Of a stretch of 64,000 nt of DNA, positions 23,081-44,700 are shown piece by piece. Positions within the stretch are counted from its first letter, which is position 1, and each line of letters begins with the position of its first letter. A program made the translations under genes and the position numbers. The stretch lies in the IMG/VR virus record IMGVR_UViG_3300024255_000006, positions 62,001 to 126,000 of that record; one strand, 5' to 3'. The DNA is from a virus. The notes below the pieces were generated by a model, which saw only the letters and a list, made by a program, of their open reading frames with translations, searched no databases and was not told the DNA's origin.

Positions 23081-23416
23081 ATGGCGGCAATTCCAATTAA
23101 TTTAATTTGTGAGAAAGGAACGGATTTCACAGCAACATTCAATATTCAGAATGAAGCTAACACAACTCCGCTAAATCTCACTGGATATACTGCTGTCGCT
23201 AAGTTGAAAAAGAGTTACTACTCTTCAACCTCTACCGATTTTGCTGTTGGTTTTCCAGATAGGTATAACGGTCAACTTTCAATTACGTTATCTAATACTG
23301 TTACTATAGGATTAGATCCTAGAAGATATGTTTATGATATTTTGTTGACTGCTCCATCTGGATCAAAATCTAGAGTTATTGAAGGTATTATCGAAATTAC
23401 ACCTGGAGTTTCCTGA
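23081..23416 (+). CDS. Small beta-sandwich virion protein, BppU-like
   Basis: This 111-residue protein has the pattern of short Ig-like phage fibre-support domains: a 'KGTDFTATFNI' strand, a 'LNLTGYTAVAKLKKS' segment, a 'GQLSITLSNT' strand, then RRYVYDILLTAPSG and a closing strand ending VEITPG-like. This layout resembles the N-terminal domain of baseplate upper proteins and many small cyanophage fibre genes; I infer it from pattern, not from a search. Its stop overlaps the start of the next gene by one base. Expression probably comes from the promoter box in the terminator just upstream. Confidence 0.75.
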   Translation: MAAIPINLICEKGTDFTATFNIQNEANTTPLNLTGYTAVAKLKKSYYSSTSTDFAVGFPDRYNGQLSITLSNTVTIGLDPRRYVYDILLTAPSGSKSRVIEGIIEITPGVS

Positions 23417-24120
23417 TGCCCACATATAACGTATCAGTACAAAACTCTAATTACAACGTTCTCTCTGAACCACAGAAGAACTATGCGATTGGAGTTACGT
23501 ATGATATTCCAGCAAAATACTTACAGAACAATAACATTGTTCTTGATGATGTTACTGGACAGTTTAATGGTGTTCAAACTGCGTTTAATCTAACTAATAA
23601 TAATGCGGCGTATACACCAACTGATTCCAGTCAACTGATTGTATCTGTTAATGGCGCTATTCAGCACCCTGGTGTTGACTACAGTGTGAGCGGTTCACAA
23701 ATTATCTTAACTCAAGCACCACAAATTGGTGATAAGATTTTCATTATTGCTCTAGCAACAACTGCAGATCTTACTAGAACAATTAATTTTGTTCATAGTA
23801 GTGGATCATTCGATATGAACTTGGGAGATAAGGGAGAAGTTACCTTAGACGTAACTGGTCTTCTAGAGTCTTGGGTTTTAACTGCAGACACTTCAGGTGT
23901 CCTAGCTATAAACGTAGAGAAATGTACTCTAAATGACTATCCCAATTTCCAGTCAATCTGTGGAACAGACAAACCAACTATACTAAATAGTGTGAAAGGG
24001 TCGAACGATAATCTAACTGCATGGACAAAAGAAATCATTGCTGGCGATATTATTAGAGTCAGTGTTGATCAAGTGTCCAACATCAGAAGATTTATGTTGG
24101 GCATGAAACTTCTCCTCTGA
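23416..24120 (+). CDS. Virion or fibre-associated protein
   Basis: It encodes 234 residues. Residues 37-115 form a module common in phage fibre and baseplate proteins: 'VLDDVTGQFNGVQTAFNLT', then 'LIVSVNGAIQHPGVDYSVSG' and 'IILTQAPQIGDKIFII'. Similar blocks occur in the gp7-position protein of this window. The C-terminal 110 residues look like a separate beta-rich domain. It is co-translated with the gene before it (TGATG overlap). A part in tail-fibre attachment or adhesion is likely, without a specific assignment. Confidence 0.75.
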   Translation: MPTYNVSVQNSNYNVLSEPQKNYAIGVTYDIPAKYLQNNNIVLDDVTGQFNGVQTAFNLTNNNAAYTPTDSSQLIVSVNGAIQHPGVDYSVSGSQIILTQAPQIGDKIFIIALATTADLTRTINFVHSSGSFDMNLGDKGEVTLDVTGLLESWVLTADTSGVLAINVEKCTLNDYPNFQSICGTDKPTILNSVKGSNDNLTAWTKEIIAGDIIRVSVDQVSNIRRFMLGMKLLL

Positions 24121-24187: not shown

Positions 24188-25189
24188 ATGGCACTTCTAG
24201 TACCTGATATCGGAGAACTAGAATCACTTCGATACCTAATCAATGCAAATAATCATGTCCCTTCAAGGGAAGACAATGCTCCTAGGGATTTGATTCTAAA
24301 GCTTTACGTAAGTAACACCACTCCTGCTGAGGGTGATGTTCCTTCACAAACTGCTTACTTTGAGCCTTACAATGCAGCAGGTACTCTAGGTTATGGTACT
24401 AATCCAGTTACCAACTACCCTGCTTGTGTTAATAACAGAACCGAAACACGCTATGATTATACCGATCAGTACGGTATTCTTCTAAACGGTTCTCGTTGGA
24501 CTATCGCTACATCTGGCGGTACTACAACTGCTTCATACCCAGAGCAAACATTCACATTCTCTGGTCCTGCTGGTAACGTATATGGTTACTACATCGTAAG
24601 AGCAAACAACATGCCTATCGATGTCCAAGGTGTTGCTGACGCTGCTACTGCTGCAAGTGCTACTCAGATTATTAAGGGTACAACCGCTGATCCTTGTATC
24701 GGTGTTATTGGTAATAGTTTCATCACCCTTCCAAACGTTGCTAACGTAATGGATAACGTTACTAACGGAATGGTTGTTGGTGGTAACACTGGTGTTCCTG
24801 CAAATACCGTCATTCAGGGTGTTGATCGTGCAACTCGTGTGATTTATCTATCGAACAATCTCACTGCGAACATTGAAGCTCTGACTGATCCCGATATTAC
24901 TCTAGACTACTCACAGGTTGCGACTGGTGCTAATGCTCACGGTCTCCAGCCTGGTGATGTTATCTACGTAGAGCGTGGTACTGGTAATACAACCACAACT
25001 GCTGGAACATATGTAGTTCATACAGCTCCTTCTGGAACTACCTTCACCACGACACCTGCCCTCGATGGTTCTGGTTCATTGTCTCTCTACAGCAGCATCA
25101 TGTTTGCTGAGAGATTCACCAATGGTCCATACCCAATTCAGAACAATGGTGACCAAATTAAGGTAACCCTCAACATCAGCCTCGACTGA
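24188..25189 (+). CDS. Virion structural protein, cyanophage fibre type
   Basis: This 333-residue protein starts with MALLVPDIGELESLRYLINA, close to the start seen in a family of abundant cyanophage virion proteins that precede long fibre genes. The early part (LKLYVSNTTPAEGDVP, then 'FTE-type' beta strands) and the rest are beta-rich and low in charge, as expected for a tail-fibre or capsid-decorating protein. There is no signal peptide or membrane segment. It has its own late promoter, a GGAG ribosome-binding site at 24174-24177 and a strong terminator directly after it, so it is a single-gene unit. This suggests high, separate expression. Confidence 0.8.
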   Translation: MALLVPDIGELESLRYLINANNHVPSREDNAPRDLILKLYVSNTTPAEGDVPSQTAYFEPYNAAGTLGYGTNPVTNYPACVNNRTETRYDYTDQYGILLNGSRWTIATSGGTTTASYPEQTFTFSGPAGNVYGYYIVRANNMPIDVQGVADAATAASATQIIKGTTADPCIGVIGNSFITLPNVANVMDNVTNGMVVGGNTGVPANTVIQGVDRATRVIYLSNNLTANIEALTDPDITLDYSQVATGANAHGLQPGDVIYVERGTGNTTTTAGTYVVHTAPSGTTFTTTPALDGSGSLSLYSSIMFAERFTNGPYPIQNNGDQIKVTLNISLD

Positions 25190-25272: not shown

Positions 25273-28200
25273 ATGAGCGTAATTTACATCTACAATTCGT
25301 CCACTGTTAACCTGTTCGTCACCGAAGATCTTGGATCGATTACATCGACTCCAACCACGGAAGACTACGGGTCCATTTCTGCTGCTCATACTCAAGAAGA
25401 AAATTATTACGAAGTTCAGTACGTTGGAGATGTAACGCCGTTTGGAACAGCGACCATTGGCGGATCTGCAAATGCTGTAAAACAAAACGTTTATCAATTC
25501 GCATCTATAGGAAGATTCAGATTCATCTTCCAAGAAGCGTCATCATTCCTCATTCATGCATGGATTGGTAGTGGATCTCTATTCGAGATCGGAGGAGGAC
25601 TAGAAAGAATTGTTGCTCCATACTTAGGAGCGGATCCGTTAGGGGGTATCACCCTATTCAACACATCTGGTAGTGCTGAGGAGTCCTTCAGCACTATCTA
25701 CAATATCGAGGACACTACGACCCTTTCGACGGAAGACTATGGATCAGTCTCCGTTGGAGGGTCTTCTGTCGATTATGGGCAGGTCAATACCTACACTACT
25801 GCTCAACTAGAGTATGGAACTGTTAGCGACGTATTTGCAGTTCCGTATGAAGGAACTATTAGCATTACTGGTTCTGGAGAGGAATCCTTTACTGAGTCTG
25901 GATATGTAGGAACTGGATCCTATGGAGGATTCTCTGGTTCTGCATTTAACAGTATTCCTAGAAGATATGAAGGATCTGGATCTCTATTCTCTGTTGGTGG
26001 TGGAGAAGAACAAAACGCATATCGCTGGGTATCACTTACACCTGTTATCAAACTTACAGGTGGAACATCATCAACAAATAGTTTTAGACCTCAAGGTCCC
26101 ATCTATATCGAAGGTGGTGCTGATTCATGTGCTGCTTTCAGAAATGTTTCTACAGGATCTCTATTTGGATTCTCTGGAGGAGATGAATCGGTAACTAGAG
26201 ATTATGATGAGGATAATGTACTCGTCTTTAGCACTCAGGATTATGGTTCTGTATCTGCTTCCGCTACAACAACTGCAGATTATGGATCAGTAACATCTAT
26301 CGCTACTGAGTATAGTGATTTTGGATCTGTTATTTACGGTCAAACAGCGTATTCAACTACAGGTGGATTTACTCTATCTGGTTCCGCAGATGTACAGTTC
26401 ATTACGAAACGAGAGTTTACTGGATCTGGATCTCTATTTGCAATTGGCGGCGAAGCAAACTCCTTCATTCCAAATTGGGTCGCTACTGGACTATTTGGAA
26501 TTACAGGATCATCAACATCCAGAGTATTCAGAGAGTATGAATCCTTAGGTGCTCTAATTACATCTGGTGGTGAAGCAAATAGTCTAACTGTAGTATATAA
26601 CGACAATATCAATATACAGTTTGTAACAGAAGACAGAGGACTTATTACTTCTGCTGTTACAACTTCAGAAGATTTAGGTGTAGTTACTCAAGACTCTACT
26701 TCTGTTGATAATGGTCAGGTAGTATTCTTAGGAGCACCATTTGGAGGAATGACTCTGAGTGGAACTGGCGATGGAGCGCCACTCAGAACGTTTGTATACG
26801 CAGGAACTGCATCTATTACTACGAGCGGAGCAGCTACCAAGTTTGCGTTTGTTCCTGGACCATGGAGAGGCGATGGTCTATTTGCGATCACAGGTGGGGA
26901 TCAATATTCTAATCCAAGAGCGTTCCAAGGATTTGGTTCCCTATTTTTGGGAGAACACTCGAACGAAAAAGCAACAAAGGATTACAGCGATTCAATTATC
27001 GATGTATTCTCTACAGAAGACAGAGGACTTGTTTCTGTATCCGCTACATCAACAGAAGATCAAGGTCTTGTTACTAACAATCCAGCACTATCAGACCTTG
27101 GATCTATTTCAAGATCTCAGACTGATGTTGCTGCTACTGCAAATATCGTTGTTAGTGGATCTGCAGTCACGGCAAATCCAAGGAAGATTTCTTACGTTGC
27201 AGTTGGAGGAGGAATTCTATTCAGTGTCTCTGGATCGAATCAAGTATTTGTACCAGAGTTTACTGGATCTGGTTCAATTTCTATATCTGCAAATTCTGTT
27301 CCCAACTTCAGTCTTGGATTTATTGGAAACTACACATTCAATGTTGTTGGTGGAAATATCTCCGAAGAGATTACAAAAGACTACAGCAACGATCAGATTT
27401 CTTGGGATTTCTACCAAGAAACCGAATTTGGTACACTTACAACAAATCCACAAGCACCAAGGGACAGCATTTATCCTGTTGGAGAATCTGCTGTATCACT
27501 ACCAAACAGCACTCAAGACTTTGGATTAGTATTAGACACCAATCTTGCAAGATATTATAACTTCGGTAGAGTTTCCATCACTGCTGATAGTCAGTCAGCA
27601 GCAGGAACATTTACATTCACTGGAACTGCAGTTCCAGAATACAAACCAGAATTTGCTCAAACTGGTACTGGTCTATTCAGAATTACTGGTGTTGCTCCAA
27701 ACTCATTCTTCCCAACTTGGAATGCATTCGGTACTCTGAATGTTACTGGTCAACCAATTTACAACTTCTCCCTATCAAACCCAGGAACAGGTTCTCTATT
27801 TGCAAATGGTATTAGTGGAGAAGCGATTACAAGTTCTTACAACTTGTCTTCTATCGATAGCTTTACCATTGGTGATTTTGGACAAATTACAACTACTGCA
27901 GTTAACTCGACTGTTAGTTCGATTGTCACACCAAATAACACTCTATTCTTTAATCAGAACTCCAAGACTAATGTAGTCTTTTCTAATGGTGGAACGGGAA
28001 TTGGTTCTTTCGGTGGATTCAACATTGGTGATCACCTAAGATTTGGTCAGTCTACTAATGAAACTGATGTTGGAACAAGCAGATTTATTCTAACAAACAC
28101 CTTCAATGATACCAGTAACTGGGAATCTCTCGATTTTAGAGTAATTCGTGGTAATAACGCCAATGGCGGAGAAAGACCAGATAGTGGAGAAGACCTAGTT

Positions 28201-31200
28201 CTCTATTTTAGGTCGCCTGATACTGCTGGAAATACATTCTTCAGAGTAGGGACTATTCTCGATAATAATTCTTCTAATGGTCAGAATTCTCCAATATGGA
28301 AAAGGTTAAATCTTCCTTCACTTGCAAGGGCACAAGGTGTTCAATTTGCAATCCGTTCTACAGGAACCTATTATGCTAGCCCTGAAGGATTCGACCATTA
28401 TGGTCTGCAGCAAGTCAATGTTAACATAGGAGTTTCTGGATTTACTGATTATGAGTATGTAAATGAACTTGCAACCGAAGCAGAAGATTGGGGATCAATC
28501 TACTACGGTAATGAATCAAATGTTCCATTTGGTTTGTTCCGAATTACTGGTGCTGCAGAAACCGCAGGTCTCAGTCGTCCAATTATTGTTGGATCTGGTG
28601 GTGTTACTCTCAGTGGAGATGCAGTCAAACAGTTTGCTCCGAACTGGAACACAACAGGTCTATTTGCAATCTCTGGGTCTGCTGAAACTCCATACTCCTT
28701 ACGCGAAATTTCTACAGGAACTCTATTCACGATTGGCGATACATCACATAGAGTTGTATTTGACTACAATATCGATTCAGATATTTCCTTTACTACTGAA
28801 GACAATGGATCTGTTGCAGTCAATGCGACATCTACAGAAGATAATGGATCTCTTACTGCTCCTATCACTGGAGGGGAAGTTGATAATGGATATGTTGTAT
28901 TCAACGCATCGAATAGTGATTCATTTGGTGGAATCACAATTAGTGGTTCAGTGGATGATGAATTCAAACCTGAGTTTGCTCAAACTAGTACTGGTCTCTT
29001 TGCGATCACAGGTATTGGTATTGACTCCTTCTTCCCCAACTGGAATGGATCTGGTGTTATCAATACTTCTGGTGGAGACGGATACAACTTCAGTCTTCTC
29101 CATCCTGGTTCTGGTACACTGTTCTCGAATGGTATCGCAGGAGAGGCGATTACCAATCACTATAATATTTCTTCTGCTGATATCTACAGCACGGTTGATT
29201 ACGGTAACCTCACCACAGTTGCAACATCAACTGATGATTATCAGAGCATAACTGGTCCTGGTACTTCCGTCAATCTTGACTTTGGTAATGTTATTACTCA
29301 AGGTCAAACAAACGAACCATTTGGTCTATTCAGAATCACTGGTTCTGCACAAACAGCGAAGATTCTACGTGGTGTCGAATCTGGATCTGGTTCTCTATTC
29401 GCGATTGGTGGTGCAGTAGAAACATTCCATCTGGAATACACAACTACAGGACTGTTCAGATTCTCTGGATCTGCTGTTCCAAAAGCAATTTTACGTAATA
29501 TCTCCACAGGAACTTTATTCACTATTGGTGGAGCTGCAGAAGCAGTTGTATTTGATTACAATCAATCTTCTATTAATTCCTTTATCTCTACAGATAATGG
29601 TCTGGTATCTGCAACTGCAACATCGACGGAAGACCATGGATCTCTTGTCGGACCTATTACTGGTGGCGAAGTTGATAATGGATACGTCGTATTCAACGCT
29701 CTTACTGGTATTCCCTTCGGTTCTATCAATATCGGAAGTGATGCTGAGTACGAATTTAAACCTGAGTTTGCACAGATTGGTACAGGTCTATTTGCGATTA
29801 CTGGTCAAAGTATCAATTCGTTCTTACCCAACTGGAATGGATCGGGTGTTATCAATACTTCTGGTGGAGACGATTACAACTTCAGTCTTCTACAGATTAC
29901 GACTGGTGGTTTGTTTACCAACGGTATTGTTGGCGAAGCAGTTACCAAACATTATAACATCTCTTCTACTGATGTTTATAGTGCAGAAGATTACGGTTCT
30001 ATTGCTACAACCGCAACAACAACTGAGGATTATGAATCAGTAACCGATATCGGTACTTCCGTTAATCTTGACTTTGGTAATGTTATTACTCAAGGTCAAA
30101 CAAACGAACCATTCGGATTATTCCAGATCAGCGGTGCTGCTGTTACAGCAGGTCTCAGAAAACCATCTTTCAACGGAAGTGGAGTTGCATTCGTATTCCG
30201 TAGTGCAACAGAGTCCTTCAGTCTTGAGTACACAACTACTGGTCTATTTGGATTCTCTGGATCTGCTGTTCCAAAAGCAATTTTACGCAATATCTCCACA
30301 GGAACTCTGTTCACTGTCGGTGGAGCTGCAGAAGCAATCGTTTACGACTACACCCAGTCATCGATTGCAGTATTTACTACCACAGATAACGGATCTGTTG
30401 TATCCAACGCTACATCAACTCAAGACCATGGATCTCTTGTCGGACCTATTACTGGCGGTGAAGTTGATAATGGATTCATTGTATTTAATGCAGCAACTGG
30501 AATTCCATTTGGTGGAATTACAATTGGATCTGCAGCAGATACTGTATATGCACCAGAGTTTGGTCAGGTTGGAGACGGTCTCTTTGCGATTACAGGATTT
30601 GCAGAGGATCAGTTTATTCCAAACTGGGTTGGTTCTGGTGTTCTACAAACTTCAGGTGGAGACGGATACAACTTCAGTCTTCTACAAATTACAACTGGAG
30701 GACTGTTTGCGTTCGGTGGATCTGCAGAGGCAGCAGTTAAGCATTACAACATCTCGTCTAGAGATATTTACAGCACTGTCGATCATGGAGCACTTACTAC
30801 AACTCCAACTTCGACAGACGACTATCAGTCGGTAACTGATTCTAACACATCTTCTAATCTTGACTTCGGTAATCTTATTACTCAAGGTCAGACTAATGAA
30901 CCATTTGGATTGTTCCAAATCAGTGGCGCTGCAGACACAGCAAAGATTCTCAATATTTCTTTTGTTGGATCTGGTTCTATATTCACTGCAAGTGGAGCTG
31001 CAGATTCTCTCACATCAAATCCTCCAGAGAATACAGTTCTATTCACTTTTACTGGATCGACTGTACCAAACTTCTCGTTCAGTCAACCAGCAAATGCTTT
31101 CATCACACTCGATGTCGAGTCGGAAGAAAGAAGAGTATACGATTACAACGAAGATACCGTTGTTACGTTTGGAACAGAAGATCTTGGTCTTATCAGCAAT

Positions 31201-34200
31201 ACTGCTACGACAACGGAAGACAACGGTCAACTTACAGATCCAGTTACAGGATATGATGATCGTGGATTCGTTATCTACGATTCTATCGTTAGATCTGCTA
31301 GTGGAACTATTACTATTAGTGGTGCGGTTACTCCAGACTTTATTGCAGAAAATGCTCACAATGGTTCTGGAACAATCACCCTGTCGAGCAATGCAGCAGT
31401 TCAGTTTATTCCAAACTGGGTTGGTACTGGTCTGTTCGGATTCAGTGGTGGAGATGGATACAACTTCAGTCTTCTACAGATTACGACTGGTGGTTTGTTT
31501 ACCAACGGTATTGTTGGCGAAGCAGTTACCAAACATTATAACATCTCTTCTACTGCTACGTTTACAACAGCAGATTATGGTGCTCTGTCTGGTACTCCAA
31601 CTACCACAACAGACTACGGAACTGTTACGACAGCATACTCAGATATTGAAGACTTCGGTCTCATCACCGTTACTCAATCTCTCGATCCATACGGTCTATT
31701 CCAGATCAGTGGTTCTGCAGGCACGTTCTTCCAGCCATTCCGAGGATCCGAGTCTACAGTTCTATTCCAGTTCAGTGGAACTCGTGCATTCGAGCAATTC
31801 ATTCCCAACTGGAATGGATCTGGTTTTATCACACTATCTGGTACTGCTGGTCAGGTTGCATACCGCAACTTCCCATATGCAGGAACAGGTGCTCTGTTCG
31901 GAAATGGTATTGTTGGCGAAGCAGTCGTCAAGGACTACTCTGCAACTTCTATCGTTCCATTCAACACAGAAGACTTTGGTCAGATTTCTTCTGTCCCAAC
32001 TACAACATCCGACTACGGTCAAATCACGGATGGATCTACTCAAGATGTAGATTACAGATATATTTGGGAGTATCCATCTTACGGTATTCCATTCGGAACA
32101 ATCACGATTAGTGGTAACAACAGTGCTACCACCAACTTTATTCGTGCTCCATATGCTGCATTTGGTAACTTCACCATTATCAGTAATAATCTTGTACCGA
32201 TGCAAGAAGCATTTGCTGCCGAAGCAGATGTGTCTGGAGTTATCTACCTTGGATTTGCTTCTGCAGGTGCAGATCGTACTCGTGCATACGATGGTTCTGG
32301 AACTCTGTTTGCTACAAGTGGAGCTGCAGAAAGCAAGACCACAAACAAACCAGAAAGCACTGTACTATTTGCATCTAGTGGATCTGCAGAGTCTCCAAGA
32401 ACAAGAGACTTTATTGGATCTGGATCAATATTCACTTTCGGTGGTTCTGCAGAAGCAGTAGCAGTTGCACAAGAAACAACAGGACTATTCACACTTTCTG
32501 GTACAGCAGATACAGACCGATCCAGAGACTATGTTGGATCTGGATCACTGTTCGCAATTGATGGAGCAGCAGAAGCAGTTGCAGTTGCACCAGAAACAAC
32601 AGGACTATTCACTATTGGTGGAAGTGGAGATCCACCAATCATCACCCTCAAGTTCTTCGGTGGTGGAACAATTACTCTCAGTGGAACAGCAGAGTCTCCA
32701 AGAGCAAGAGACTATGTTGGTTCTGGTTCCCTATTCGCAATCGGTGGTGCAGCAGAAAGCAAGACGAGCGACGAAGAATTTACTGGTCTCTATACCTTCT
32801 CTGGTACTGCAGAACCAATCATCAGAACTCAGGCATTCCAAGGTTCTGGTCAAACCACCATTTCTGGTACAGCAATCGAGAGACAACTCGATCACTACCA
32901 TGGATCTGGAGTATTCCAAGTTACTGGTATTGCATCTGCTCAAGAATCTTATGTACCAGCAGCAGAGATTGGATCTGGTTCACTATTCAGTGCAAGTGGA
33001 GCTGCAGAAAGCAAGACCAGCAACCCACCAGAGAATACAATTCTCTATACATTCGCTGGTACTGCAGAACCAATCATCAGAACTCAGGCATTCCAAGGTT
33101 CTGGAACTATCAGTATTTCTGGTCAACTTGGTCTCAAGGTTATTCTCAACTACTTTGGTTCTGGTGGAATTATCCTCAGTGGAACTGTCGGAGAATCCTT
33201 TACACCAGCTACGGAAGTTGGATCTGGTTCGATTACTCTATCTGGAACCGTTGGAGAATCCTTTACACCAGCTACAGAAGTTGGATCTGGTTCTATTACA
33301 CTCTCTGGTGCAGCGGTCGAGAGACAACTCGATCATTACACTGGGTCTGGTACGGCAACGATTTCTGGTACTGCTGGAATCAAACTCATTATCGACTTCA
33401 TTGGTTCTGGATCTCTATTCTCTGCAGGTGGAGCTGCAGAAAGCAAGACCACAAACAAACCAGAGTCTACAGTTCTATTCGCAGTTTCTGGCGCAGCAGA
33501 CGAGTCATTCGGTAAGGGTAACTACGACGCTTCTGGAATTACATCAGTTTCTGGCGCAGGAATTGAGAAGCAAACTGACGATTATGTTGGAAATGGTTCA
33601 GCAACTCTATCGGGTACGGCAGATACAGATAGAACAAGAGCATTTGCTGGATCAGGATCTCTATTCAGTACTGGTGGAGCGGCAGAAGTTGCTGTTGTCG
33701 ATTACGAAAGTGTTGGTCTCTTCTCGATCATTGGATCTGCAAACGAAGCGATTACTCCATTCATTCCGCCTGGTTCTGGATCTGCATTCTTCTCTGGTAC
33801 TGGAGTCGAAAGACAAGCAGACGATTACGTTGGAACTGGATCAGCAACTCTATCTGGTCAGGCTACAGACATCAAACTGTCTTATGGTCACCAGGGAACT
33901 GGTGGAATCACACTTTCTGGATCTGCAGTCGAAAGACAAGCAGACGATTACGTTGGTACAGGATCTCTATTCTCTACAGGTGGAGCTGCAGAAAGCAAGA
34001 CCACCAACAATCCAGAATCTACAGTTCTGTTCTCCTTCTCTGGAACAGCAGCAGAGTCTACAACGTTCGATGAAGTCAGTCCTGGTGGAACAATTGTTCT
34101 ATCTGGTCAAGCAACCAACATCAAATTCAACAGAGGATGGGAAGGCAGTGGTACTGCAACGTTATTTGGATCTGCAGTCGAAAGACAAGCAGACGATTAC

Positions 34201-35463
34201 GATGGTTCTGGAACTCTGTTTGCTACAAGTGGAGCTGCAGAAAGTAAAACTTCAAATCCACCAGAGAACATTGTTCTTTACACATTCTCTGGAACTGCTG
34301 GAGATCAGAAACTTACCTTCAGCGAAGTTGCTTCTGGTACTATCACTCTATCTGGTTCTGCTGTCGAAAGACAACTCGATCACTACCATGGATCTGGAGT
34401 CTTTACTCTCAGCGGCGCAGCCGAAACTCCAAGAGCAAGAGACTGGGTTGGAAGTGGTACGATTATCAAATTCTCTGCTCGTCAGGGAACTCTATATGCG
34501 AAGGTCGTCGATCTTCCAGAATTCAGTGGTCTATTCTCTATCTCGGGAACAGCAGATACAGACCGATCCAGAGACTATGTTGGATCTGGTTCTCTGTTCT
34601 CTACAGGTGGAGCTGCAGAAAACAAGACTACCAACAAACCAGAATCCACTGTTCTATTCAACTTCTCTGGAACAGCAACAGAATCCAGAACAAACGATTA
34701 TGTTGGATCTGGTTCTCTATTCGCGATTGGTGGTGCAGCAGAATCTGCAACTGTCGCAGAAGCTTCTACTGGTTTATTCAGTCTTTCTGGTACAGCAGAT
34801 ACAGATCGTTCACGCGCTTATGCTGGATCTGGAACTCTGTTTGGATTCTCTGGAGCAGCAGAATCTGCTACTGTCTCCGAAGATGCTACTGGTCTCTTCA
34901 CGATTTCTGGAACAGCAGAGTCTCCAAGAGCAAGAGACTATGTTGGTTCTGGTTCTCTGTTTGCAATCGGTGGTGCTTCCGAAAGCAAAGCAACCAATTA
35001 TCCATCGATTGGTCTATTCCAGATTTCTGGAACCGCTGGAATCAAACTTATTATTCATTACACTGGTTCTGGATCAGTTACTCTCAGCGGCAATGCTGCA
35101 GAAGCATTCGTCAGACCAACATATGTCGGATCTGGTTCTTTCGGTGGATTCTCTGGATCTGCGACAGAAAGCAAGACGAGCGACGAAGAATTTACTGGAA
35201 CTACAACGATATCTGGAGAAGCAACAGATATCAAACTTACGTTTGGATATCGTGGATCTGGTTCTCTATTCTCTACAAGTGGAACTGGAGAAAGTGCAAC
35301 AGTCGATTACGAAAATACTGTTCTCTTCACATTTACAGGCGGAGGAACGGAAGAGTTTGTTCCTGGAGGATTCAGTGGAACAGGTCAGGTCACAATTTCT
35401 GGAAATGCTGCTACAGAACTCAGAATATTCCAACCTGCATTTACGTTCGTTACGATCATATAA
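25273..35463 (+). CDS. Giant repetitive fibre-like virion protein
   Basis: This 3396-residue protein is built almost entirely of repeats. The first part (to about residue 2320) alternates 'GLFAITGSA'-type beta strands with 'TEDYGSV' motifs. Between nt 28525 and 31686 it repeats with a period of exactly 264 residues. A non-repeat, jelly-roll-looking domain (nt about 27915-28460) interrupts the previous unit. The last 1080 residues consist of short repeats of about 20-30 residues such as YVGSGSLFAIGGAAESK and VERQADDYVGTGSATLSG. There is no signal peptide, membrane helix or Cys-rich region. The ATG is preceded by GGAG at 25268-25271. Its composition (Gly, Ser, Thr, Ala) and position suggest a long thin tail or side fibre. 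I do not recognise a named family. Confidence 0.85.
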   Translation: MSVIYIYNSSTVNLFVTEDLGSITSTPTTEDYGSISAAHTQEENYYEVQYVGDVTPFGTATIGGSANAVKQNVYQFASIGRFRFIFQEASSFLIHAWIGSGSLFEIGGGLERIVAPYLGADPLGGITLFNTSGSAEESFSTIYNIEDTTTLSTEDYGSVSVGGSSVDYGQVNTYTTAQLEYGTVSDVFAVPYEGTISITGSGEESFTESGYVGTGSYGGFSGSAFNSIPRRYEGSGSLFSVGGGEEQNAYRWVSLTPVIKLTGGTSSTNSFRPQGPIYIEGGADSCAAFRNVSTGSLFGFSGGDESVTRDYDEDNVLVFSTQDYGSVSASATTTADYGSVTSIATEYSDFGSVIYGQTAYSTTGGFTLSGSADVQFITKREFTGSGSLFAIGGEANSFIPNWVATGLFGITGSSTSRVFREYESLGALITSGGEANSLTVVYNDNINIQFVTEDRGLITSAVTTSEDLGVVTQDSTSVDNGQVVFLGAPFGGMTLSGTGDGAPLRTFVYAGTASITTSGAATKFAFVPGPWRGDGLFAITGGDQYSNPRAFQGFGSLFLGEHSNEKATKDYSDSIIDVFSTEDRGLVSVSATSTEDQGLVTNNPALSDLGSISRSQTDVAATANIVVSGSAVTANPRKISYVAVGGGILFSVSGSNQVFVPEFTGSGSISISANSVPNFSLGFIGNYTFNVVGGNISEEITKDYSNDQISWDFYQETEFGTLTTNPQAPRDSIYPVGESAVSLPNSTQDFGLVLDTNLARYYNFGRVSITADSQSAAGTFTFTGTAVPEYKPEFAQTGTGLFRITGVAPNSFFPTWNAFGTLNVTGQPIYNFSLSNPGTGSLFANGISGEAITSSYNLSSIDSFTIGDFGQITTTAVNSTVSSIVTPNNTLFFNQNSKTNVVFSNGGTGIGSFGGFNIGDHLRFGQSTNETDVGTSRFILTNTFNDTSNWESLDFRVIRGNNANGGERPDSGEDLVLYFRSPDTAGNTFFRVGTILDNNSSNGQNSPIWKRLNLPSLARAQGVQFAIRSTGTYYASPEGFDHYGLQQVNVNIGVSGFTDYEYVNELATEAEDWGSIYYGNESNVPFGLFRITGAAETAGLSRPIIVGSGGVTLSGDAVKQFAPNWNTTGLFAISGSAETPYSLREISTGTLFTIGDTSHRVVFDYNIDSDISFTTEDNGSVAVNATSTEDNGSLTAPITGGEVDNGYVVFNASNSDSFGGITISGSVDDEFKPEFAQTSTGLFAITGIGIDSFFPNWNGSGVINTSGGDGYNFSLLHPGSGTLFSNGIAGEAITNHYNISSADIYSTVDYGNLTTVATSTDDYQSITGPGTSVNLDFGNVITQGQTNEPFGLFRITGSAQTAKILRGVESGSGSLFAIGGAVETFHLEYTTTGLFRFSGSAVPKAILRNISTGTLFTIGGAAEAVVFDYNQSSINSFISTDNGLVSATATSTEDHGSLVGPITGGEVDNGYVVFNALTGIPFGSINIGSDAEYEFKPEFAQIGTGLFAITGQSINSFLPNWNGSGVINTSGGDDYNFSLLQITTGGLFTNGIVGEAVTKHYNISSTDVYSAEDYGSIATTATTTEDYESVTDIGTSVNLDFGNVITQGQTNEPFGLFQISGAAVTAGLRKPSFNGSGVAFVFRSATESFSLEYTTTGLFGFSGSAVPKAILRNISTGTLFTVGGAAEAIVYDYTQSSIAVFTTTDNGSVVSNATSTQDHGSLVGPITGGEVDNGFIVFNAATGIPFGGITIGSAADTVYAPEFGQVGDGLFAITGFAEDQFIPNWVGSGVLQTSGGDGYNFSLLQITTGGLFAFGGSAEAAVKHYNISSRDIYSTVDHGALTTTPTSTDDYQSVTDSNTSSNLDFGNLITQGQTNEPFGLFQISGAADTAKILNISFVGSGSIFTASGAADSLTSNPPENTVLFTFTGSTVPNFSFSQPANAFITLDVESEERRVYDYNEDTVVTFGTEDLGLISNTATTTEDNGQLTDPVTGYDDRGFVIYDSIVRSASGTITISGAVTPDFIAENAHNGSGTITLSSNAAVQFIPNWVGTGLFGFSGGDGYNFSLLQITTGGLFTNGIVGEAVTKHYNISSTATFTTADYGALSGTPTTTTDYGTVTTAYSDIEDFGLITVTQSLDPYGLFQISGSAGTFFQPFRGSESTVLFQFSGTRAFEQFIPNWNGSGFITLSGTAGQVAYRNFPYAGTGALFGNGIVGEAVVKDYSATSIVPFNTEDFGQISSVPTTTSDYGQITDGSTQDVDYRYIWEYPSYGIPFGTITISGNNSATTNFIRAPYAAFGNFTIISNNLVPMQEAFAAEADVSGVIYLGFASAGADRTRAYDGSGTLFATSGAAESKTTNKPESTVLFASSGSAESPRTRDFIGSGSIFTFGGSAEAVAVAQETTGLFTLSGTADTDRSRDYVGSGSLFAIDGAAEAVAVAPETTGLFTIGGSGDPPIITLKFFGGGTITLSGTAESPRARDYVGSGSLFAIGGAAESKTSDEEFTGLYTFSGTAEPIIRTQAFQGSGQTTISGTAIERQLDHYHGSGVFQVTGIASAQESYVPAAEIGSGSLFSASGAAESKTSNPPENTILYTFAGTAEPIIRTQAFQGSGTISISGQLGLKVILNYFGSGGIILSGTVGESFTPATEVGSGSITLSGTVGESFTPATEVGSGSITLSGAAVERQLDHYTGSGTATISGTAGIKLIIDFIGSGSLFSAGGAAESKTTNKPESTVLFAVSGAADESFGKGNYDASGITSVSGAGIEKQTDDYVGNGSATLSGTADTDRTRAFAGSGSLFSTGGAAEVAVVDYESVGLFSIIGSANEAITPFIPPGSGSAFFSGTGVERQADDYVGTGSATLSGQATDIKLSYGHQGTGGITLSGSAVERQADDYVGTGSLFSTGGAAESKTTNNPESTVLFSFSGTAAESTTFDEVSPGGTIVLSGQATNIKFNRGWEGSGTATLFGSAVERQADDYDGSGTLFATSGAAESKTSNPPENIVLYTFSGTAGDQKLTFSEVASGTITLSGSAVERQLDHYHGSGVFTLSGAAETPRARDWVGSGTIIKFSARQGTLYAKVVDLPEFSGLFSISGTADTDRSRDYVGSGSLFSTGGAAENKTTNKPESTVLFNFSGTATESRTNDYVGSGSLFAIGGAAESATVAEASTGLFSLSGTADTDRSRAYAGSGTLFGFSGAAESATVSEDATGLFTISGTAESPRARDYVGSGSLFAIGGASESKATNYPSIGLFQISGTAGIKLIIHYTGSGSVTLSGNAAEAFVRPTYVGSGSFGGFSGSATESKTSDEEFTGTTTISGEATDIKLTFGYRGSGSLFSTSGTGESATVDYENTVLFTFTGGGTEEFVPGGFSGTGQVTISGNAATELRIFQPAFTFVTII
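29875..29971 (+). repeat. 97-base identical direct repeat, copy A
   Basis: This block is identical to 31459-31555, exactly two 792-base periods downstream. The intermediate copy starting at 30667 differs at many positions. It encodes FSLLQITTGGLFTNGIVGEA and flanking residues. Confidence 0.9.
31459..31555 (+). repeat. 97-base identical direct repeat, copy B
   Basis: This is the second copy of the block at 29875-29971. Divergence resumes immediately on both sides, so the identity looks like a recombination or gene-conversion tract. Confidence 0.9.
33187..33312 (+). repeat. 63-base tandem duplication in the fibre gene
   Basis: Two adjacent 63-base units (33187-33249 and 33250-33312) encode nearly identical 21-residue repeats, VGESFTPATEVGSGSITLSG plus one residue. 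They differ at only a few bases, which suggests a recent duplication. Confidence 0.9.
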
Positions 35464-35475
35464 AAACTTCCGCGT

Positions 35476-35483
35476 TATAAATA
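35476..35483 (+). promoter_or_regulatory. Late-promoter box TATAAATA
   Basis: A perfect TATAAATA lies 29 bases before the ATG at 35512 and directly after the giant fibre gene. Confidence 0.65.
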
Positions 35484-35511
35484 AATCTAGAAAAACTCTA
35501 GGCATCGAAAT

Positions 35512-35721
35512 ATGACTACCCAGGTACAGCTTCGTAGAGGCACCACTGCTGAGCACGCATCATTTACTGGTGCAGTTGCTGAACTCACGGTAGATACTAC
35601 ATTAAATGAGTTGGTGCTCCACGATGGGGCAACTGCGGGCGGCATTCCAGTCGCACGTAAGGATTACGTGAACACAGAGTTAACGAAAGCAATTGCAACA
35701 ATGATTGCAGTAGGCTTCTAA
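35512..35721 (+). CDS. Stand-alone Mtd_N-like fibre domain protein
   Basis: This 69-residue protein matches the pattern of the N-terminal domain found on many phage fibres, including the Bordetella phage tropism determinant: VQLRRGTTAEHASF, then AELTVDTTLNELVLHDG and a final helix (KDYVNTELTKAIATMIAVGF). In most phages this domain is fused to a longer receptor-binding protein. Here it ends after the domain. It could be a small adaptor, or what remains of a split fibre gene. It has its own late-promoter box. The next gene starts 50 bases downstream. Confidence 0.75.
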   Translation: MTTQVQLRRGTTAEHASFTGAVAELTVDTTLNELVLHDGATAGGIPVARKDYVNTELTKAIATMIAVGF

Positions 35722-35771: not shown

Positions 35772-38700
35772 ATGGCAAAGAAACTAGTATACGAGTATCA
35801 GTTTAATGCATCCACAAGGAAAATCAAAATTTATGATAACGTAAGTGTTAAGAAACTTCTTCTTATTACTAACGTAACTGATAATATCATCCTCTATAAC
35901 TTCGCTGATGAAGCGAAGGGTGCAGCAAGTGTAACATTTGATCCCATCACTGAGCACACAGAAATCACATTAAACTTCGATACAACATCGATGTCTGATA
36001 GTGATCAACTTCAAATCTTTATTGAAAAACCAGAAGTTGCATTTGAACCATCAGAAACTTTTGTTGACCCAGTATCAAAGATTCGTGTATCTAACCCAGA
36101 GAACTTGGTTGATACCGACTTTGAATATGGTCCTCAGGCATCGAAGTGGGAGACACTTCAGCTTGTAAATAACATTCCTTCTGCATATTCAAATACTTCA
36201 GATACTACAATTTCTGGTATTATATCAATTTCAGCAACCAATGGTAGTGACGTTATTGTCGTCACTACGAAATTCGAGCACAACCTAAATCCTGGTACTC
36301 CAATTGACGTTCGTGGTCTTACTAGTTTCACCGCAGAAGGTTCGTATCTGATCCAGTCAGTACCAACGCCATCTACATTTACTTATCGTTGCCGTGGTAC
36401 TCAATCACAAACTGGAAACCTATCTGGTGCATATTCATCTGTTATTCCTGGTCAGTTCTACTCCAACTCACAGCTAATTCTAGACTCTTATGATGGTCTT
36501 CTTGCTGACTCTAGAAACTATATTGTCGATATTCCTGGTGGATCGGGCGGTGGTTTCTATATTGATGGTGTAGCTAGCCCAGACCTTACTATTACCAAGA
36601 ATGGTATCTTCTACTTCACTCAGGAAGCAAACAGCAACACAACTCACAGAATTAGATTTGCTAGAGCGGATCAATTTGTCGATGAAGTCACGAAGCAAAT
36701 CCACCATTTAGATGATGGTACTGAAGGATCACCTGTTGTATTTGCTACTAACAACACTACTGCTAACGTATATGCTTCCGATAACGGATATATCTACACA
36801 GCAGACACCGACATTGAAATTGTAGGATCTCAATGGTTAGAAACAACCTACAACCTTACAGCTGGTTCAGCAGCACTTCCAGCTGGTCCTGTATTTAACA
36901 AGGGCGCATATGCTTCAACTCTAAAGTTACAAATTAGAGTTGGTGCAGCTGGTCTAATTGCAACATCAACAGATAACCTAAATTGGACAGTTCAAACTTC
37001 TGGTACTCCTAACGATCTTTATGATGTAGATTACGACGGAGCATTCTTCACTGTTGTTGGTGATAGTGGAACTGTTCTTCGCTCTGCTGACGGTACTTCC
37101 TGGACAGCAGTTGCGGGTACAACAGGTACAACAAACTATAGAGGTGTAAGATCAAACTCACAAGACCTCGTTATTGTTGGTGCTGGTGGTGAAATCAGAC
37201 AGTCTTCTGATGGCGGTGCTAACTTAACAGTTAGAACTACATCTGGATCAGAAAATCTAGAAGCAGCTGCATGGTCTGGTCAAAAGTGGACAGTTGTTGG
37301 TGCATCAGGTGCTGTATACACATCTCCCGATGCTGTTACTTGGACTAAAGAAACCGCAGTTGGATCTGCTAACAACCTTACTGATATTAAGTGGGATACG
37401 GACAATGATCAGTTCGTAATTATTGGTGCTTCTGGAACACTTCTAACAACTCCAGATGCTAGTACATTTACAACTAGAACTACTGGTCTCTCCAATACAC
37501 TAATTGGTCTTGCATGTGGAGATGGTGGAAATGGATATCGCATCGTAATCATCGATACTCAAGGTGATGGAGCGTATTCGAGTGATGGTGGTGTTAACTG
37601 GGTAGCATTCACAACTGGTACAGGTGTTACAACTACTGAGTGTTACTGGACAGGATATGCATTCAATATCTTCCAGCATACTGGAACTCCAGGAACCAAT
37701 GCTGCATCTACGTACTTCTCTGCTATCCAACAACCATATACTGCAATTCCTGCTGGTCAAATCCAATTCGGTGCAAGTGGTACTGTAAGACCAAGAGATA
37801 TTGTTTGGGTTACTGATGATAACCAGTTTGTTCTTTGTGCAGATAACAATGGTGCTGGTACTAATGGTGGTATCTTTGTTTCTTCTGCTGGTACATCTTG
37901 GACAGAAAAAAGTGATGCAAACATCCCTAATGAAAGCTTCCTCAAAGTCCAGTATGCTGGAAATGCATATTGGTTCCTAACTGAAGATAAACTACACTCA
38001 ACTGCAGACGGTACTACATTTGCTACTTGGACTGAAATTCTAGATAAATCTAACATCACAACAAACTCAGGTTTTTCTACAGATACTGTTGTTACTGGTG
38101 GTTCTGCATATAACGCAGGTACAAATATTTCTCTAACCACTCTTACTGGTGATGGTTCTGGTGCTGAAGCAACTGTTGTTGTTGTAGGTGGTGTTGTTTC
38201 TGATGTTACAATCACCAATGCTGGTAAAGATTACAAGCAAGGAGATAGAGTACAAATTTCTGGTGGTAACGGAGACGCTATTCTTGAAGTCGCGACTATC
38301 GGAACTGGAGTAAACTCAACAGCATCAACATTCAGAGATTTCTTTATCTCCAGTGACGCTGGTATTATCGCTGTTGTAGGTTCGGATGGAGCAATTGTTT
38401 GGTCAATTAATGGTGGTACTTCATTTGAAGTAGATAATGTTGGAACTAATATTAACTTGAACGGTATCATTAGAGACGACACATACGAAAATCAGTATGC
38501 TGTTGTTGGTGATGCTGCTACTGGGGCATTCGTTGCTACTGCAACTAACCTCGAAACTTGGACAAGAGTTCCTACTTCTAACATCCCAGTTACTACAAAT
38601 CTCACATCAATCTTCTTTGATGGCGAAAGATATGTTGCTGCTGGTGCTGCAGGTTCGATCATTTCATCTTATGACGGTACTCACTGGAGTAAAGTTATTG

Positions 38701-41700
38701 GATATGGTATTGATGCAGATATTAACTTTGCTGCATCATTTACAAATACCAATACGATTACAGGCGAAGGTACGTATCTAGCATTTGGTGTTGATAGAAA
38801 TGCATCCCATCAAAATGAATCTGGTCTTTGGGTAGCTGAAGAAGGTCGCAAGCAATATACAGATAGTGTATATGAAACAGCAATCTCTCCAGGTTCTACA
38901 GGATCGTATACTAGAATTTTCGTTGATGTAAACACTCCAAAGTATCTGACTTATTACTGTCAGACTCATGGAATGAACATGAAGGGAAATCTTTTCTTCG
39001 ATGAGCAATCAATCTCGAAGATTTACATGATGACTGAGCATGAGAATGGATTCTCGACTGGTACTGATTTCTATGTTGTTAATACAGTTTCTCCAAAGGT
39101 TGTAGAGATTGTTGATCCAGCTGGTACTGCACCTGATGGTCGTGGATATGTTGATATTGTTCAAACCTTGAGCATTAATGCACAAGATACTAGAGGACTT
39201 CCTCTAGCAACAGCAGCAGATCAAGGTTATGACGCTCCAGAACAAACTGGTAACCAACTAATTGGTTTTAAGGGTTCTTATGAACTGCAGATTCAGTCCA
39301 AGAACGTTGATTATTCAACGAACACAATTACTTTTGATGAAGATCACAAGTTATATGATGGTGCTGCATTGTACTACTATCCAATGCCTGGTGATAAACC
39401 AATTGGTGGTTTGATGAGATCGCAGGTTTATTATGTACAGGTTGTAAATACTAAAGCAATTAGACTACACAATGCAGGTGTAACTCCATCTTACTATAGC
39501 AGTGGAGTTAAGATTGATAAGTTCGATGACTGGGATTATCCAGTTACCCTAAGAGAATGGGCATTCACTGGAATGCGTCAACCACAAACAGCAGAATATA
39601 CCACTGAGTATACTCAAGATATTCGCTACGGCATGTCTCATGCTATCTCTAAAGATGGTAGAACATGTGCTATCGGTGGTAGATATTCTGATGATGGGCA
39701 AACGAACCGTGGACAAGTTTGGGTTTATCAGAAGAATCCATTCACTAATGAGTGGGATTGGAAGCAAAGATTCCAGCCATACACTTCGGCAGGATCATCA
39801 CAGTATTTTGGTCATGCAGTTGCTCTAAACAAAGACGGTACAAGACTTATCGTTGGTGCTCCAAGAACTGACCGTGCAGGTAGTGATACTGGTTCATGCT
39901 ACGTATATGATAGAGCGAAAGCTTACGCTAACATGACTGGTCCAGAAGATTATGCTAACTACTTCGATGGTAATTACCAGAGCTTCTCGGGTACACATGT
40001 ATTTGAAAGTAATGATATCTCTGGTATCGATAACGATACATCCTCTTACATGGGTACTACACTAGATATCAATGATCTAGGAGATTACTTCATTGTTGGT
40101 ATTCCAAGAAACGATGAAAACGGTGGACAATCTGGTGTTTGTGTCGTTGCACATCAAACAAACTTTAATACAACCCACCAAAGAAATGGTGGTAGTGGTA
40201 GTGGTGAAACTTATGACTATGAAGAGGTTAAACCTACCGATGGTACTTTTAGTAGTGAGGACTACTTTGGTGCAACAGTCAAGATGGCTGGAGATCAATC
40301 CAAGATTGTTATCTCTGCAGATCGTGATGACCAATCTCAGTCTAATTCTGGTTCGGTTTACATTTTCAACAGAGGATCGGGTAATACTTGGACTCAGGCA
40401 CAGAGAATTAATTCTCCTGCACCATCTGCGAGTGCATACTTTGGACAATCAATTGCATACTCCAAAGACACTATGTGGTTGGGTATTGCAGAACCAAGAC
40501 AAGAGACTAGTCGTGGTAACGACATGGGTCAAGTCCACATCTACAACTGGGATAGTGGTACTGGATCGTATGTCTGGAAGCAAACTCTAGAGTGTCCAGA
40601 AGGAACTACTAACTGGGCAGATGGTAAGTCTTCAATCCATTTTGGTGGTAATGAAGTCGATGGTGATAACCCCGACGGTAGCGGAAAAGGTCAAGGCGAT
40701 GGTCTCGTCATGAGTTATGATGGTTCTGTAATGTGTATTGGTGTTCCCCAGTACGACATTAGAGACATCAGACCTAATACTAGCTTCTCTGGTACTGACA
40801 TTACAAATTACAGTAATGTAGGTGCAGCATTCACATATCGTTTGAATGATACTAAAACTGGATACGATAATGATGGTAAGATCCTTTGTGATTACAGTCA
40901 TGATGGTAAGTTCGGTGTATCCATGGCTATGGATCAGCACGGTGAAGAAATGGTTATCGGTGCTCCAGGAACCAATATTCGTTACGATGACTCCACTGTT
41001 AATCTGGGTGTCTCGATGTTCTACAGTAGAGCACATACTGCTAATGATTCATCTGAATCTCCAAGTGCAATTTCTTCAGTTGGATCTGATACACTAACAA
41101 TTAGTGCTTCAGTATACAATACTCTAAGAGATGAAGACGTAGTTCTTTACTACCATGCTCCTGCTGCATCTGCTGATGGTTCTGGTGGTGATCAACTAGT
41201 CAGTGGTACTAAGTATTACATCACTAAGAGAGGAAGTAATCAGATTAGTCTCTCTAGTACATTTGATCTTCAGAAAGCAGGTACATATTTAAACCTTAAT
41301 TCTAGTGCTGGTAGTGGATTACGTAACATCAAGAAACTTCCTAGAGGTGCTACGTTTGAAAGAGGAAACCACAAATTCGCTCTCTGCTATAGAATTCAGA
41401 GAGAAGAGAAGGATGGTTCTTACCAGTGGTACTATAGAACCATGTACTGGAAGCTTCAAAACCAAGCAAGTGGTTCTTATCTAAACGGTGTTGGTGCTGC
41501 AGGAATTACATATGGTTCTGGTTATGATCTTTATCAATATGGTGCTAACTCCTATGGTCTAGCAGGTGCTGGTGGATATGTTGGAAACGCTAGTAACGTT
41601 GAAAACAGCATGATCTTCCATACCTACAGACCTGGAATTGGATATCCACGTCATAGAAAAGTAATTGAAAACACTGGAGTAAGATTCAGAGGTGTATATG

Positions 41701-44700
41701 CAGAACAACATAACCAAGGATGGGCGCAACATTTAACAAATGAAGGTTGTATCTATCCACAGACCAAAGCAATTACAGGTCATAGAGGTGATCCACTTCT
41801 ACAACCAAGAAACACCTCTGCAGAGAGAAACTTCTACGGTCCTTACGGTTCTTCAGGAGATTCATCAATTGCTCCTGGTAACTGTGCTGTCTATAATGAC
41901 AATGCAAACCCATATACAAACGGAACTACCCTAGACGGTCAGATCAAAATTTATGGTAACAACAGAGAGTGGAGAAGTTACAACAGAGAAACTGATGTTT
42001 CTAACTGGCAGAACGATTGGTCTGGTTCATTGTACTGGATGCCTTTGTCTAGGGTAAATGATCAAGACACAATCTATTCTGAGAATCACAACCTAATTAC
42101 CAATGAAGTGTTAACGTTCAACGTTATAACTGGTGAACCAATCGAGTATAACAAAAACACTGGTTGGAATACCAGCGACACGGACACGCTAGACAACGGT
42201 ACTAGCGTATATGTTGAGGTTGTTGATGATAACAGATTCAGACTCAAGACAACACTTGCTGGTCAACCCCTAAGACTTCTCCAACTACCTGGAACGTATT
42301 CACTAACAGGTGTAATTGATAACCCTAAGAGAAACTCAATGTATGTTGAGGATCACCAGTTGTCTGAAAACAACAAGGTTATCTACAGCAATGAGGGAAG
42401 TGCAATTATCAGTGGTCTAGTTGATGGTGATACTTACTACATTGATGTTATCAATGGTAACAGATTTGCACTAAGAGATTCTGCTTCGGTTGCATTTACT
42501 GGTAGAGCAAGATCTCTCAATACAAACAGTGCTCCTAGCAACCAAACCAGAATTACCAGACTATCAATTACTACTGGTCTACAACTGGGTATGAAGGTTG
42601 ATCTAATTGCAAATACTCAGGGTCTATCCCAAGAAGGTGAATACGAGATCACCAATGTTAACTTCACTACTGTAAACGCAGATACTAACTACATCGAAGT
42701 CGATAATCAGTGGGGTGGTACTGCTACTTCATTGGTAAGTAACGTTTCATTCGCTGCTGCGGTCTCTTCTGAAGTTCTATCTGGTGTTGGTGCTGGTCAA
42801 CAAGCATTTGAAGATCAGACTTCTGACTTCGGTGTTTCTGACGGTGGTTATAAGAACACTGTTATTATCGATGAGAAGACTCTTGAGATTAACGTTCCAT
42901 TTAAGGTACGTCCTACCAAGAAACTCTTTGATACCAGCAATGATGTAAGTCTAGTCAACAACTCATTCACAATCGCTGATCACTTCTTTGTAACTGGTCA
43001 GAAAGTTATCTACTCTAACAATGGTGGACTAAATATCGGCGGTCTATTAAACGATACCGATTACTACGTAATTCAGTTAGATGATAATGAATTCAAACTT
43101 GCAGCGACAAGAGCAGAAGCAGAAGCAGGTACTTCTATTGCATTAACCGAAGTTCCTGGAGTACCACAGAACCATCTGTTTACCCACGCTAACGTTGCTG
43201 GTCGTGTTCTTGGTGCTGGTAGACTTGATATTTCCAATGGTTCTAGAAGAATCCTTGGTACACAAGGTGATGCTACTTACACCGATACATCCTTCAAGCG
43301 TTACTTCAAGGTTGGTGATGTTATCCGTGTCCTAGACACAAACACTTCACCTTCAACCATCCACCAGCGTCTAATCACCGCAATTAAGGATGACTTTGAA
43401 ATGCTGGTTGACGAACCATTCACATTTACCGACGCAAACTCTCAATACTTTATTGATACTCTTGTTTATGTACGTCCTGATGGATACTATCTCCACAGAC
43501 CATTTGACGGTGGTATGGAAATCGGTTCATCCAAGTCTCCAGATGGTCTAATCTGTCGTCAAACACGTAAGTATTTCCGTTACCAGTCAGGTAAAGGTAT
43601 CCAGACCTCACTTGCTATCAACTTCAATCCAAAGATCGCTGCTAAGTCAATGTCTTACAGACAGGTTTCTGGTGATGTTTATGGTAACATCGAGAACTAT
43701 AGCGTTTCTAACGCTCCTGGTGATGTTTCATGGACATTCACAGGAGATGCTTCTGGAAGTAACCTTGGACTCACACTCAAGGCAGGTGATACATTGAACA
43801 TTGCGGTTGCAAATGGATCAGATAATCTCTGGATTACTTCTTCTACTGCAACTACTGGTCTTGGACCATCTTACGCTGATAACATCAACGTTGGTATCAC
43901 AAATAACGGTACTAACGATGGTACTATCAAGTGGGATACAGACAAAATTACTGCTGGTACATACTACTTCATCTCTCAGCAAAACCCAGTTGCAATGCGT
44001 GGTGAGATTGTTATCTCGGACGCAGCAGATGGTGCTAAGAACAGAATGGTTATTGTAACAAGATATCCACATAGTGTACAAGAGAACACCAACGTTATTA
44101 TTAATGACTCAGCTGATGCAGAATTCAATAGCGGAACTAACGGATGGAAAGTCATTAATCTTGTTGACGACTTCACATTTGAAGTTGACCTCAAGACTTT
44201 AATTCCAACATCTTCCAACGCAACTGGATTCCTAGGATATCATATCAAGGAATGGTTGAATTCTGCAGTACGCTGTGGTATGTTTGACTTCCAGAATGGA
44301 TTCTTCTTTGAATTCGATGGAACTGATGTCTACTGTGTAAGAAGATCTTCTACTCAGCAGATGACTGGTTCAGTTTCTGTTCGCAGGAACAGCAACGAAG
44401 TTTCAGGTATAGGTACTAAGTTTACCACTCAACTTGGTTTCGGTGATAAAGTCGTTATTCGTGGTCAAACCTACAAGGTTGTTAAGGTTACTTCCGATAC
44501 AACCCTTAAGATTCAACCTTCTTACAGAGGAACCACAACTGATAACGTCTTGATCTCCAAGACAGTTGATACTAGGATTCCACAATATAACTGGAATATG
44601 GATCACTGCGATGGAACTGGAGAGTCTGGTTACAACCTAGATCTCACTAAGATTCAGATGGCGTATATGGATTACTCCTGGTACGGTGCTGGTAAGATCC

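Follow-up and report, generated by a model that had tools for sequence, protein, structure and literature searches.

In-frame duplication of a composite 264-residue block in a giant, putatively fibrous virion protein of the PHROG 11522 family

Introduction

The shafts of the adenovirus fibre (the triple beta-spiral) and of the T4 long tail fibres are built from short strand-turn repeats, and the number of these repeats sets the length of the fibre. The giant viral protein described here likewise carries short, putative strand-turn repeats; it differs in the length of the repeat, which is 20-22 residues, and in having no sequence match to solved chains. T4-like cyanophages abound in the sea, and most of the fibres by which they bind their hosts have still to be identified. 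Giant fibres are known among cyanomyoviruses from S-CREM2, where mass spectrometry detected the product of ORF85 (14.9 kb), named 'long tail fiber', in virions (PMC10665884). Both are giant gene products of T4-like cyanomyoviruses, likened by size and group and not by sequence, but the S-CREM2 gene lies elsewhere in the genome (PMC10665884).

Closest by sequence are the homologous PHROG 11522 proteins S-CAM1 S170810_099, S-CAM3 C421010_094, S-SSM7_110, SfFS3_93 and S-SCSM2R_111. As in the present case, their genes follow those of a 333-aa and a 234-aa protein, and they possess strand repeats, N-terminal D-x-G motifs and a similar C-terminal end; unlike it, they are shorter (1,369-2,558 aa, with 1,369 in S-SCSM2R, 1,529 in S-SSM7, 2,130 in S-CAM1 and 2,558 in S-CAM3), lack the 264-residue period and have no described function, the records of S-SSM7, S-CAM1 and S-CAM3 annotating them as 'hypothetical protein'.

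The analysed DNA comprises 64,000 nucleotides (hereafter the window), positions 62,001 to 126,000 of the IMG/VR virus record IMGVR_UViG_3300024255_000006. An initial annotation, made from the letters alone, had pointed to an exact 792-base period in a giant gene and proposed a 264-residue structural unit that tolerates substitutions but not indels.

Results

Genome context and the three-gene cassette

Its sequence places the record among the T4-like cyanomyoviruses, which infect marine cyanobacteria. DNA matches over the neck/terminase region were obtained for 298 phage records, the majority of them of Synechococcus phages or cyanophages; the named relatives are Synechococcus phages, with those that carry a taxonomy line assigned to the Kyanoviridae. 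Upstream of the giant gene lie gp6- and gp8-type wedge genes, and downstream neck, sheath, tube, portal and scaffold genes, with gp13, gp14, gp15, gp17 and gp18 among those present. The coordinates of the gene, its parts and its two upstream partners are given in Table 1. Of the 35 records whose upstream DNA was long enough, 33 have relatives of both partners just ahead of the giant gene, and the carriers of this cassette include S-CAM1, S-CAM3, S-SSM7, Sf-FS3 and S-SCSM2R. The 234-aa protein matches tail-fibre PHROGs and, weakly, a solved capsule depolymerase; the relative of the 333-aa protein in S-SCSM2R bears the GenBank label 'tail fiber rope protein', itself unsupported.

Table 1. Features of the giant repeat gene and its cassette (positions in the window)
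Feature	Position	Strand	Remarks
234-aa virion/tail-fibre-like protein	23416..24120	+	phrog_10330, phrog_18673; conserved partner
333-aa protein	24188..25189	+	phrog_10467; directly upstream of the giant gene; conserved partner
Giant repeat protein, 3,396 aa	25273..35463	+	PHROG 11522 member; intact ORF over 10.2 kb
N-terminal modules M1-M6, about 128-170 aa each, variable	25438..28524	+	strand repeats then D-x-G triads; M6 carries the inserted domain; module/triad profile matches
Reelin-subrepeat-B-like jelly-roll domain, aa about 875-1065	27895..28467	+	splits the half-unit before unit 1; PF21471 rows, AlphaFold2, Foldseek
Unit 1, 264 aa	28525..29316	+	modules A1 (28525-28920) and B1 (28921-29316)
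Unit 2, 264 aa	29317..30108	+	modules A2 and B2
Unit 3, 264 aa	30109..30900	+	modules A3 and B3
Unit 4, 262 aa	30901..31686	+	modules A4 and B4, diverged
Fifth-anchor module (PYGLF)	31687..32088	+	final module with D-x-G triad
C-terminal region	32089..35460	+	strand repeats of ~20-22 aa only; ends ...FVTII, a C-terminal motif common to relatives

The repeat array

About 46% of the residues of the giant protein are Gly, Ser, Thr or Ala, and a single Cys is present. The in-frame PFGLF anchors at 28525, 29317, 30109 and 30901, spaced by 792 bases, were confirmed, as was a second anchor, YNFSLL (TACAACTTCAGTCTT), at 29083, 29875, 30667 and 31459. One spacing is indeed two codons short (786 bases); it is the fourth, from 30901 to PYGLF at 31687, and not the fifth as had been stated. 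The array had been delimited to 28525-31686, all of which belongs to it, but it starts slightly earlier and runs past this end (about 28486-32115). Self-comparison yielded a gap-free diagonal at a lag of 264 over 946 residues (aa 1072-2017 against 1336-2281, 51% identity), a periodicity well above chance; the best gap-free self-diagonal had a BLOSUM score of 2248 versus a shuffled maximum of 47, and within 28525-31686 identities at this lag numbered 448 of 790 residues versus 63 +/- 7.5 in shuffles. Units 1-3 are 61-69% identical to one another at the amino acid level, and unit 4 is 42-46% identical to them. Conservation of length to the codon holds for units 1-3, while alignment of unit 4 shows its register to be kept partly through compensating 1-residue indels. 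The 792-base repeat is an in-frame block duplication of the window's own lineage within a widespread family.

Module grammar

The 264-residue segment, taken initially for the structural unit, is composed of two diverged 132-residue modules, A and B, that were duplicated as a pair. In the self-comparison the lag of 132 was also prominent, and strong shorter periods, of 132 and of 20-22 residues, run within the 264. Within units 1-3, identity amounts to 56-71% for A-A, 66-70% for B-B and 29-36% for A-B pairs, with invariant residues common to both halves. In the N-terminal two thirds of the protein, four strand repeats of ~20-22 residues and then a triad of D-x-G motifs, set 13-14 residues apart, make up one 132-residue module. 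A search with a profile of this triad found 15 copies in the giant protein, with a spacing of 132 +/- 1 residues across the array and an irregular one in the N-terminal third. A position matrix of the strand repeat (consensus roughly GSGxLFxxSGxAxExx) gave 86 matches, or about a hundred copies, versus 0.9 in shuffles, and 61 of the 85 successive distances were 20-22 residues; the window's three other giant ORFs had 0-1 matches each. The 264-residue unit is therefore a higher-order repeat and not the basic one, the order being 20-22, 132 and 264 residues.

An overlapping open frame of 1,016 codons, in which L, Q, S and V are frequent, crosses the C-terminal repeats (32465-35515, + strand, frame +2) and is most likely a shadow of their repetitive codons.

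Age, selection and indels

In L010, a relative whose contig was assembled separately, all five anchors recur at spacings of 264, 264, 264 and 262 residues. Each unit of the window is closest to its own L010 counterpart (orthologous identity 71-84% versus 61-69% between the paralogous units 1-3), synonymous divergence between the paralogous units 1-3 is high (dS about 0.9-1.7, near saturation), and dN/dS for units 1-3 compared across the window, L010 and L009 is 0.16-0.32. It follows that the duplication is old, that the units are under purifying selection, and that they predate the split of the window and L010.

The claim that substitutions are tolerated and indels are not applies locally: in units 1-3, 186 of 792 residues differ between the window and L010 with 0 indels, against an expectation of 3.2-5.9 if the units had the indel rate of the N-terminal region (P 0.003-0.04, according to which indels are counted). 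It fails as a general rule. The orthologous unit of L009 has 266 residues, unit 4 contains small indels, module spacing in other lineages is 130-147 residues, and changes by whole quanta occur; the C-terminal regions of the window and L010 differ by exactly 80 residues, or about four short repeats (window aa 2365-2445), and these two close relatives are separated by this 80-residue deletion and by a 163-residue domain insertion. Indels within units are rare, not forbidden, and bigger changes come mostly as whole pieces.

Relatives and lineage-specific periods

As the initial annotation had surmised, the protein is repetitive and lies outside the named families: PHROG 11522, labelled function unknown, was the sole family match (E 1.6e-209, 17 stretches), and the giant protein itself had no match in Pfam, NCBIfam or the tail-fibre PHROGs, the last of which were matched only by the 234-aa partner. 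In sequence searches of the PDB, neither the module profile nor the complete protein found a credible counterpart among solved chains. Genome contigs were scanned with units 1-3, revealing no bacterial or archaeal relative; the half-modules taken all together gave an alignment too diverged to scan the collections with. By tblastn and IMG/VR scans, relatives were found in 47 records, a census that includes near-duplicate contigs and is skewed to carriers of the inserted domain because many records were recruited via that domain. In literature searches we found no paper describing the repeat family and no virion proteomics or microscopy covering it.

Within this family, undescribed in the literature searched, each lineage has its own exact period: 264 residues in the window and L010, 132 in L030 and L032, 220 in L073, 246 in S-CAM1, 259 in L042, L055, L059 and L089, 388 in L066, and 418 in L026. 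Self-alignment of S-CAM3, S-SSM7, Sf-FS3 and S-SCSM2R disclosed no long period of comparable strength. In a module tree, the A and B modules of the window form separate clades with one-to-one orthology to L010, and the six modules of L032 form a clade of their own (support 99); the deep forks are unresolved, as few columns were available. Taken together, the lineage-specific periods and the tree indicate that arrays have more than one origin, in different blocks, and that other lineages have other exact periods because they repeated other blocks.

The inserted jelly-roll domain

The domain inserted ahead of unit 1 belongs to an aligned set of 67 rows, 39 of which match Reelin subrepeat B (PF21471; best E 7.3e-17); the window's own row has no match to PF21471 at E <= 1. 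It was modelled by AlphaFold2 with a pLDDT mostly >90, and Foldseek returned reelin (2ddu, E 2.8e-6) as the top match, followed among solved folds by Eph-receptor ligand-binding domains, MAM domains and carbohydrate-binding modules. The insert thus has the same predicted fold as solved reelin repeats; the likeness is confined to it, and the 264-residue units are unrelated. Scans of viral contigs found 214 relatives of the domain. L010 and L018 carry an extra copy at another site, from which it is absent in the window; the jelly-roll is inserted at polymorphic sites. With its reelin- and carbohydrate-binding-like fold, it would suit an adhesion role, and we regard it as a putative portable adhesion-type domain.

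This reelin-subrepeat-like domain recurs in gp53-type and gp7-type baseplate proteins and in fibre-like proteins of many marine phage contigs (L024-L103).

Discussion

The giant ORF probably encodes a fibrous virion protein, with the shaft of a tail fibre (side fibre or adhesin) as its most likely identity, within a three-gene cassette conserved among cyanomyoviruses. As it matches no curated tail-fibre family, we class it as a protein that works like a tail fibre and not as a member of a named family. In an AlphaFold2 monomer model of modules B1-A2-B2 the pLDDT was 32 and strands came back roughly every 20 residues; in a second model the modules reached 41-55. Because both models of the repeats are of low confidence, we infer the repeat fold, the oligomeric state and any rod; the low monomer pLDDT would fit an intertwined oligomer without showing one.

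Two rival readings concern the constant unit length. Were the 264-mer the indivisible element of a stacked rod, its register kept since no indel fits, one could account for the 946-residue self-alignment without gaps and for 186 substitutions without an indel between the window and L010. That explanation is very doubtful, given that the A and B halves are ~30% identical with invariant residues in common, that the triad recurs each 132 residues, that relatives have periods of 132, 220, 246, 259, 388 and 418 residues, and that the L009 unit has 266. Alternatively, length conservation might reflect inheritance alone, with exact tandem copies, too little time for indels and no structural constraint. 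The lineage-specific periods do show that duplication history sets the period, but paralogous units close to synonymous saturation are still gap-free, the expected indels in units 1-3 are missing, and the 20-22-residue spacing holds family-wide; we consider inheritance alone decidedly unlikely.

As to function, the protein could be a virion structural protein other than a tail fibre, e.g. a baseplate-wedge extension, a whisker or a head fibre. The gene sits between wedge and neck genes, the inserted domain also occurs in gp53-type and gp7-type wedge proteins, and, since several giant genes adjoin baseplate genes in cyanophages, another lateral virion appendage is possible. Against this, no other giant ORF of the window has the repeat architecture and the 234-aa cassette partner matches tail-fibre families, which leaves such an identity unlikely. 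There is virtually no chance that the array is an artefact of assembly or of the metagenome: the window is an IMG/VR record known from assembly only, yet the ORF is intact across 10.2 kb, its units are ~30% apart in DNA, unlike a misassembled duplicate, and the separate contig L010, with the same five anchors and unit-by-unit orthology, rules an assembly artefact out.

If the protein is a tail-fibre shaft, its strand repeats would form a long beta structure, probably an oligomer, in which the gain or loss of whole repeats would change length alone; unequal recombination between repeats could then shift fibre length in whole quanta. The jelly-rolls, and possibly the triads, may serve as periodic, outward-facing adhesion nodes for the cyanobacterial surface, and the 234-aa and 333-aa proteins may attach or cap the fibre. 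More speculatively, and only as a tentative proposal, strand repeats and D-x-G triads could together constitute an unsolved fibre architecture, with block duplication acting as a lineage-specific ruler for fibre length and the spacing of adhesion nodes.

The locus provides a fibre-like cassette that is syntenic, easy to recognise and present in dozens of records, together with a repeat grammar of 20-22, 132 and 264 residues. The family-wide set of exact periods is its most interesting part: these lineage-specific periods form a natural series for testing repeat-driven change of fibre length and the shuffling of adhesion domains.

A 69-aa ORF (35512-35721, + strand) separates the repeat gene from the giant gene that follows. 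It is similar to the N-terminal end of SSCSM2R_112, a large protein of S-SCSM2R (MTKQVQLRRGS...); a gene at the corresponding place in Sf-FS3 carries the annotation of a major-tropism-determinant N-terminal domain. The adjoining giant gene (35772-45854, + strand) encodes a 3,360-aa virion protein that bears FG-GAP repeats (PF14312).
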